Shown piece after piece: positions 30,932-31,753 of a stretch of DNA of 64,000 bases. The notes under the pieces are model-generated. The model saw only the letters and a list, made by a program, of their open reading frames with translations, was not told where the DNA came from and ran no database searches. The stretch comes from Natrialba sp. SSL1. GTDB taxonomy: Archaea > Halobacteriota > Halobacteria > Halobacteriales > Natrialbaceae. How positions within the stretch are numbered: position 1 is the stretch's first letter; the number at the start of each line of letters is the position of its first letter. The DNA lies in the NCBI RefSeq assembly GCF_001861355.1, contig NZ_MASN01000018.1, forward strand, positions 62,001-126,000, in the 5' to 3' direction. The translations under genes and the position numbers were made by a program.

Positions 30932-31100
30932 GGCAGAAACTCGCGTACTGAGTGAGCGATTTCGGTCTTCTGTTCTCGATTACGAGCCGATTCTTGCACC
31001 CACGTCACGTCGAGCGGGTGTACCAGCGATTCGTTCGGAACGGCGCCTTGTTGTTGGGTAACTATTATGTAACCCAAGGTAATAGCCATCAGTGGTGTCA

Positions 31101-31337
31101 ATGAACCGACGAACCATCCTCAAACGAGCCAGCGCAGCAGGGCTGGGAGTCGCAACAATCGGTGCGGGAAGTGCCGCCGCACGAAACGACGACCCGGAGG
31201 TCCGCCGGGTCGAAATCGACGGCGAAACGTACCTCGTATTCGGCGACGCGACCGTTGACGACCTGAGCGAGGACGATCTGTGCACCTGCGACAACTGTGA
31301 CCCCGTCCTCTGTGACTGGTGTGGCCCCTGCCGATAA
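31101..31337 (+). CDS. Tiny Tat-exported Cys-rich peptide
   Basis: 78 residues from the ATG at 31101. A Tat signal (MNRRTILKRASAAGLG, with SAAARND as the likely cleavage region near residue 28), a short acidic domain with IDGETYLVFGDATV, and a C-terminal knot of six Cys in 17 residues (CTCDNCDPVLCDWCGPC). The mature peptide would be about 45-50 residues. No lipobox. The layout resembles secreted haloarchaeal micropeptides or bacteriocin (halocin-like) precursors, but there is no immunity or export gene nearby. Cys spacing could also bind a metal. Confidence 0.75.
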   Translation: MNRRTILKRASAAGLGVATIGAGSAAARNDDPEVRRVEIDGETYLVFGDATVDDLSEDDLCTCDNCDPVLCDWCGPCR

Positions 31338-31555
31338 CCACCACCCAAACACGGCCCATTTTTCGTGGCGACGATCCGGAAGCGGGAGTGCGTACTTGAT
31401 GCTCGAGTACCGCTCTATTCCCTCCCAACCTTCCCAAGCGATGCCCGAGACTCACTGCACGTCGTGACAGTGCTGCCAATCGGGGTGCTGGCAGTCAGTC
31501 CCGGTGTAGTCGGAACCGACTCCCAGAGACACTGGAACGCAGTACAAAAGATCGG

Positions 31556-31753
31556 TCAGTCGTACTTTCGAAAGCCCATATCGCGCGCCATCTCTCTGAA
31601 GGATTGGCGGCACAGCCAGATGTCGTATTTGCCGACCAGTCCCTGTTCACGACCGGTTGCACGACAGACGCGGGTAGCACCTGCTCGCTCGTCGTCTGCG
31701 TCGGTCGTTGCCGTCCGCTGCTCTTCGTCGGCCGTCTCCGGTTCGCCAGTCAT
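31556..31753 (-). CDS. Ribosomal protein uS14 paralogue with incomplete zinc ribbon
   Basis: 65 residues: a 25-residue acidic head, then the uS14 core [11 protein letters not shown] and [15 protein letters not shown]. Archaeal uS14 binds zinc with two CxxC pairs; here the pairs read CRAT (C30, T33) and CRQS (C48, S51), so one Cys of each pair is gone. It lies alone, not in the usual spc operon between rpl5 and rps8, so it is a duplicate. It may be a zinc-independent substitute, as C-minus ribosomal paralogues are in bacteria, or a decaying copy; the intact frame and conserved core favour the former. Confidence 0.85.

Follow-up and report, generated by a model that had tools for sequence, protein, structure and literature searches.

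The small gene and its flanking signals

The window, here the whole analysed stretch of 64,000 nucleotides from Natrialba sp. SSL1, carries at 31101-31337 a short open reading frame that very probably represents a genuine gene. It runs from an ATG at 31101 to a TAA stop at 31335-31337 and comprises 78 codons. The following features were assigned to the gene, its product and its immediate flanks:

31056..31070, + strand: promoter-like block GGGTAACTATTATGT, about 30-45 nt 5' of the ATG, kept in 4/4 species
31101..31337, + strand: gene of the Cys-tail mini-protein, 78-aa precursor plus stop codon (homologues, codon and substitution evidence)
31101..31181, + strand: Tat-type signal peptide MNRRTILKRASAAGLGVATIGAGSAAA, residues 1-27 (read from the sequence; lipobox Cys absent)
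31182..31334, + strand: predicted mature mini-protein, 51 aa, 5754 Da, pI 4.05 (composition and AlphaFold2 model)
31281..31331, + strand: six-Cys tail C61-x-C63-x2-C66-x4-C71-x2-C74-x2-C77, invariant in 4/4 homologues
31314..31334, + strand: DWCGPCR, residues 72-78, same sequence as in the active site of thioredoxin (local match to thioredoxins)
31359..31363, + strand: T-run shortly 3' of the stop codon, presumably terminator-like, with the block ATTTTTCGTG kept in 4/4 species

On the codon model of the window, the sense frame ranked highest of the six, with a score of 7.6 against 0.3 for the next best; the best antisense frame over the gene scores 0.3, and the part encoding the signal peptide lies near zero (0.15 over 27 codons). 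Between the four species carrying the gene, each pair differs at 0-3 first, 0-1 second and 8-13 third codon positions. With a dN/dS of 0.04-0.16 over the six pairwise comparisons, the gene is under purifying selection, and within the mature part 0-2 non-synonymous stand against 4-7 synonymous changes per pair. One antisense frame is likewise open across the gene, and most of its changes are silent too (1-3 non-synonymous changes per pair), so dN/dS alone is insufficient to fix the strand. The sense strand was assigned because of the codon score, the intact Tat signal, the AT-rich box upstream and the T-run downstream. The dS of the peptide gene (0.13-0.22, resting on 7-11 silent changes per pair) is below that of the adjacent uvrA in the same pairs (0.23-0.33); this could reflect either an additional constraint on the DNA itself or a strong codon preference. 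No Rfam match was obtained between 30900 and 31900.

Alignment of the loci revealed that the upstream block is kept as the form GGGWAACYATTATRT in all four species, and its position would fit the TATA box of a leaderless haloarchaeal transcript. When the own genome was scanned with one mismatch allowed, the block was found at its own site and at one further site with a single mismatch. Beyond the ATTTTTCGTG block the sequences of the four species diverge, and the conserved unit extends from the upstream AT-rich box through the downstream T-run, with divergent DNA on either side.

Predicted export and the mature protein

The precursor begins with MNRRTILKR and shows, as judged by eye, the features of a Tat signal: an RRTIL n-region, a moderately hydrophobic stretch and an AxA-type end, GAGSAAA. 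The NCBIfam Tat model TIGR01409 matched weakly (E 0.79, 10.2 bits against a cut-off of 16.7), and the signal is intact in all four homologues. Cleavage after AAA27, placed by eye, leaves 51 residues, in agreement with a sequence-only reading of this DNA that had described a tiny Tat-exported peptide with a mature part of about 50 residues. The mature sequence, RNDDPEVRRVEIDGETYLVFGDATVDDLSEDDLCTCDNCDPVLCDWCGPCR, is acidic and hydrophilic in composition, with 15 Asp/Glu against 4 Lys/Arg, and contains both Trp and Tyr. In haloarchaeal Tat lipoproteins a spacing of 12-21 residues separates the twin Arg from the lipobox Cys (PMC2945643), while the first Cys of this precursor is residue 61. A free product is expected because a lipobox and a second membrane segment are both absent, and the features of the precursor together strongly suggest Tat export and release of the mini-protein.

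The same reading had taken Tat export to imply folding, perhaps with metal or disulfides, before secretion, which is not supported here. Tat carries 39-55% of haloarchaeal secreted proteins in one study (PMC2945643), and the genome paper of N. magadii describes it as a dominant route (PMC3403918). Because haloarchaea export mainly through Tat, use of this route is uninformative on a cofactor.

AlphaFold2, run on the four sequences, returned a model of low mean pLDDT (57.7) with a single hairpin (strands 7-12 and 15-20) and an undefined tail (pLDDT 41-50). Such an undefined tail would also match the expectation for a tail that needs metal or disulfides. A resemblance to the NAC domain (PDB 3lkx, E 0.22, residues 14-30) was dismissed, as it amounts to one short hairpin.

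The six-cysteine tail and the DWCGPCR end

Six Cys are packed into the 17 residues C61-C77 of the tail, and a single Arg closes the sequence. The earlier statement that six Cys occupy the last 17 residues thus holds for the number and the span and fails for the exact position, the literal last 17 residues of the precursor holding five. At the Cys frequency of the window (0.78%, from 51 called genes), the binomial chance of six Cys in 17 residues is 2.5e-9 per position. Of 857 stop-to-stop frames examined in all six reading frames, no other has six Cys in its last 20 residues; the runner-up has five.

The loops between the six Cys measure 1, 2, 4, 2 and 2 residues. In inhibitor cystine knots or knottins the corresponding loops span about 3-7, 3-6, 0-5, 1-4 and 4-13 residues, while CxC and CxxC with loops of 1, 2, 4, 2 and 2 are typical of chelating tails and not of disulfide knots. 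Judged by this spacing rule a cystine knot would need longer loops, and the earlier description as a six-Cys knot is not supported. The spacing would suit thiolate chelation or dithiol chemistry.

The WCGPC active-site motif of thioredoxins is present within DWCGPCR at residues 72-78. In phmmer searches thioredoxins were matched at E 0.28 (PDB 6kil) and E 0.55, with the similarity limited to the DWCGPCR stretch, and the same region locally matches three thioredoxins of the same genome. Eight thioredoxin-family proteins from the own genome were aligned, and for two of them the scores (58 and 55) lie above all 300 full shuffles. When DWCGPCR was kept and the rest shuffled, the observed score was reached by 58 and 66 of the 300 shuffles; because tail-kept shuffles reach it this often, there is no homology signal beyond DWCGPCR. 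Descent from a truncated thioredoxin is therefore unsupported by these shuffles. At thresholds up to E 10 the mature part matched neither PF00085 nor any other Pfam family.

Homologues and distribution

The peptide occurs in four of the seven Natrialba genomes, directly downstream of uvrA and at 96-99% identity. The carriers are the own genome (G000), N. magadii ATCC 43099 (G046), N. hulunbeirensis JCM 10989 (G045) and N. chahannaoensis JCM 10990 (G044). Homologues with unconserved Cys had been named beforehand as grounds for giving up the sequence-only reading; all six Cys proved invariant in the four homologues, all of them close relatives. Protein searches found no peptide in the genomes G042, G043 and G047. 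In G042 and G047 the distance from uvrA to the next gene, encoding a small membrane protein, is 84 and 85 bp, against 811-1971 bp for the same interval in the four carriers; in G043 the membrane-protein gene was not located by the motif used. The uvrA dS is 0.23-0.33 among carriers and 0.52-0.76 towards G042 and G047, and this grouping of the carriers argues for one gain or one loss and not for repeated events. The named carriers other than N. magadii are presumably alkaliphiles and the non-carriers neutrophiles. N. magadii itself is an alkaliphile (PMC3403918).

With the full protein as query, 38 of 125 genomes of the family matched at E 0.01, and the peptide was present in only four, all Natrialba; inspection of 26 of the other full-protein matches (L005-L030) revealed longer proteins throughout, with the Tat signal alone in common. 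The mature part matched 7 of 391 genomes of the class at E 0.05. Four of these matches are real, and the three weak ones (E 0.024-0.033) were judged unrelated after inspection. A profile built from the four sequences and run against the 125 family genomes at E 10 recovered the four at E ~1e-54; the next match, at E 8e-7, again falls in a signal region, that of a 503-aa protein. Among viral contigs 364 stretches fitted a pattern and none was confirmed, the phage search gave no match, and the plasmid search gave one signal-type match only (E 0.7). The genome_contigs search returned two loci, both in named species, N. hulunbeirensis and N. chahannaoensis. Within the genomes searched, the peptide is an orphan restricted to one clade of Natrialba. 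In the literature on secreted, Cys-rich, small Tat and metallothionein-like proteins of Natrialba and haloarchaea, no title or abstract describes such a peptide, most subscription journals being outside the scope of that search.

A search for the exact Cys spacing matched 115 of 391 genomes, and a reversed control was at least as frequent by eye. Among the matches listed (nine genomes repeated), most are CTG/TGC-type repeats. Nine pattern matches from nine loci were translated: four encode a large nitrilase-like protein whose length and context show it to be unrelated, and the other five were judged shadow frames, including a similar-looking tail in G007. A tenth stretch, from G118, holds no such match. 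The nitrilase-like proteins (L086, L087, L088 and L089, in four haloarchaeal genomes) are by reading about 570-590 aa long with a central CGCxxCxxCDCxxCSxC; that this cluster has exactly the Cys spacing of the peptide tail appears to be convergence.

A survey for similar genes covered 1,008,239 bases, overlapping and including 400 kb sampled from N. magadii. It yielded 270 short ORFs with a twin Arg, a start and a hydrophobic run, 25 of them Cys-rich, and by reading only the peptide itself appears to join a Tat precursor to a Cys tail.

Neighbouring genes

Pfam assigned the ten neighbouring genes to TIM-like, methyltransferase, ribbon-helix-helix-like, DUF4407-like, BNR-repeat, GPDPase-membrane-like, ribosomal S24e and degenerate S14 proteins, and two were left without a match. 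No immunity, modification/processing or sensor protein was found among these ten by Pfam, nor was a metal transporter or chaperone, or a radical SAM, LanM or YcaO-type gene, named there. The earlier suggestion of a bacteriocin or signalling peptide finds no backing in such surroundings or in the acidic, hydrophilic mature peptide.

The gene following the peptide varies: an S14 paralogue in the own genome, a PALP-family gene in N. chahannaoensis, apparently the same PALP-family gene in N. magadii (frame read by eye), and none called in N. hulunbeirensis. The N. chahannaoensis gene, cysteine-synthase-like, lies at 10508-11500 of L091 on the minus strand (E 2.6e-65) and points towards the peptide. 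The spot downstream of the peptide behaves like a small hot spot for insertions. Given this variable downstream gene, the peptide gene is part of no conserved operon, and only its place after uvrA is constant.

The S14 paralogue of the window (31556-31753, minus strand, 65 aa, PF00253, E 4e-9) has only two Cys left of the four that bind zinc (CRATG / CRQS). This C-minus form is present in four of the seven Natrialba genomes (G000, G042, G044 and G046), and the canonical C-plus S14 is present in all seven by match and identity, with clean sequences for six. In three congeners the C-minus gene adjoins a COG0523/CobW GTPase gene (PF02492, E ~1e-47):

L113, 8.3-10.4 kb: C-minus S14 and CobW pair in N. 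magadii (G046:C3, pNMAG02)
L114, 6.0-8.0 kb: C-minus S14 and CobW pair in G042 (G042:C55)
L115, 8.3-10.4 kb: C-minus S14 and CobW pair in N. chahannaoensis (G044:C78)

In bacteria, such a pairing of S14 with COG0523 has been connected with zinc starvation (PMC2770081). The C-minus S14 and CobW genes may form a haloarchaeal zinc-sparing module. The CobW promoters have in common the near-palindrome AGTAATA-N5-TATTACT (by eye). A zinc-regulon link between the peptide and the C-minus S14 was considered and rejected: the two do not co-occur, N. hulunbeirensis carrying the peptide without the C-minus S14 and G042 the C-minus S14 without the peptide, and no common promoter element is visible by eye.

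Comparison with known systems

Halocin C8, with a Cys-bearing C-terminal part, and the microhalocins, with a mature size below 10 kDa, are among the closest known systems; secretion of the peptide is predicted, and its predicted mature mass is 5754 Da. Halocin C8 is also exported by Tat, from a 283-aa precursor, ProC8, which additionally yields an immunity protein, and its mature form has 76 aa (PMC11509114). The precursor described here has only 78 aa and its product is strongly acidic and hydrophilic, whereas described halocins are hydrophobic (PMC11509114). No sequence relation to halocin C8 or the microhalocins was found by the searches run. A protease-released antagonist of Haloferax mediterranei is no parallel, because it depends on N-terminal alpha-helices and the word "cysteine" is absent from the main text of its description (PMC12893001).

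With thioredoxins the peptide shares an identical DWCGPC[R/K]; unlike them it has 51 residues, neither the thioredoxin fold nor the cis-Pro, and a similarity confined to the motif. In metallothioneins and other small metal-thiolate peptides, Cys are packed very densely in places, as CxC and CxxC. The tail of the peptide is similarly dense in CxC and CxxC, but the peptide is predicted to be exported, contains Trp and Tyr and has no family match. The CPxCG zinc-finger proteins of haloarchaea, such as Brz, a regulator of bop transcription (PMC2253796), are equally tiny and rich in CxxC; the peptide differs in having a Tat signal and no CPxCG.

The silence of Pfam and NCBIfam on the peptide is weak evidence, since two control loci also went unnamed: L026, which we take to be halocin C8-like by its layout, and L021. 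The L021 frame (1357-2193, in G030 of the same family) has 279 residues, a Tat-type signal and 14 Cys, most of them in the last 70 residues, and no Pfam or NCBIfam family. Of the two, it makes the stronger candidate for an antagonistic or structural Cys-rich peptide, ahead of the one at 31101-31337.

Possible function

The reading we favour, tentatively, is that of a free, exported, metal-binding and possibly redox-active extracellular mini-protein. Tat would export the precursor, and cleavage after AAA27 would free an acidic protein of about 51 residues, the N-terminal half of which would fold as a small beta-hairpin. The C-terminal tail would gather six thiolates in an unusually short space and could provide an extracellular thiolate site for soft metals (Zn/Cu-type), while the DWCGPCR end may also take part in thiol-disulfide exchange. 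Every functional step, from the fold through metal or redox chemistry to a physiological role, is inferred. The poor structure model (pLDDT 57.7, tail 41-50) counts against the metal-thiolate proposal, as do the absence of a metal transporter, sensor or chaperone from the ten neighbours scanned, an S14 paralogue that does not track the peptide, and a promoter block unshared save for one site with one mismatch. The thiols of the tail could also be present as three plain disulfides in an oxic, alkaline medium.

Such a peptide, stabilised by three disulfides, could serve as a small halocin or as a signal towards relatives, which we consider unlikely. Predicted to be free, Tat-exported, Cys-rich and below 10 kDa, it resembles the microhalocins, halocin C8 is likewise Tat-exported (PMC11509114), and its clade restriction is frequent in competition traits. 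This resemblance is set against an acidic, hydrophilic mature peptide (15 D/E of 51, pI 4.05) where described halocins are hydrophobic, the lack of a long immunity-bearing precursor like ProC8 (283 aa), ten scanned neighbours without an immunity-like or processing gene, and loops too short for a knottin. Bacteriocins tend towards diversification, and the mature sequence is nearly frozen across four species. If the Cys tail were instead the core of a RiPP-like modified peptide, the leader-like N-terminus and Cys-rich C-terminus would be accounted for; that leader, however, is a Tat signal, radical SAM, LanM and YcaO-type genes are unnamed among the ten neighbours, and NCBIfam gave no match, SCIFF-type profiles included, besides the weak Tat signal, which makes this origin very improbable.

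The DWCGPCR end raises the prospect of an exported miniature thiol-disulfide exchanger, in which the dithiol and a four-Cys relay would repair or reduce cell-surface proteins at high pH. The seven-residue match to thioredoxins, with scores above 300 full shuffles for two of eight proteins and the phmmer matches at E 0.28 and 0.55, would agree with it; but the tail-kept shuffles reach these scores in 58 and 66 of 300 cases, the similarity ends at the motif, 51 residues are too few for a thioredoxin fold, Pfam gives no match, and so short a motif can come from convergence. Such an exchanger is accordingly unlikely, and its most far-reaching form improbable, namely an exported minimal thioredoxin-like peptide that would carry a functional WCGPC dithiol in the smallest natural form, without a thioredoxin fold and outside a haloalkaliphilic archaeon, its four extra Cys forming a metal site or electron relay. 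That the ORF is an unexpressed conserved remnant, or the shadow of an antisense gene, hardly comes into question: the antisense frame is open and changes mostly silently, and the signal part scores only 0.15 over 27 codons, yet the sense frame as a whole reaches 7.6 against 0.3, the Tat signal is intact in 4/4, and the upstream box and downstream T-run are kept on the sense side.

If the product is just a disulfide-bonded peptide, it adds one more lineage-restricted small secreted protein. Extracellular thiol and metal chemistry at a pH near 10 and in saturating salt has received little study. A clade-specific secreted protein of 51 residues with six Cys unchanged across four species would be an easily made test object, and its WCGPC end offers a direct way to ask whether the motif works without the thioredoxin fold.
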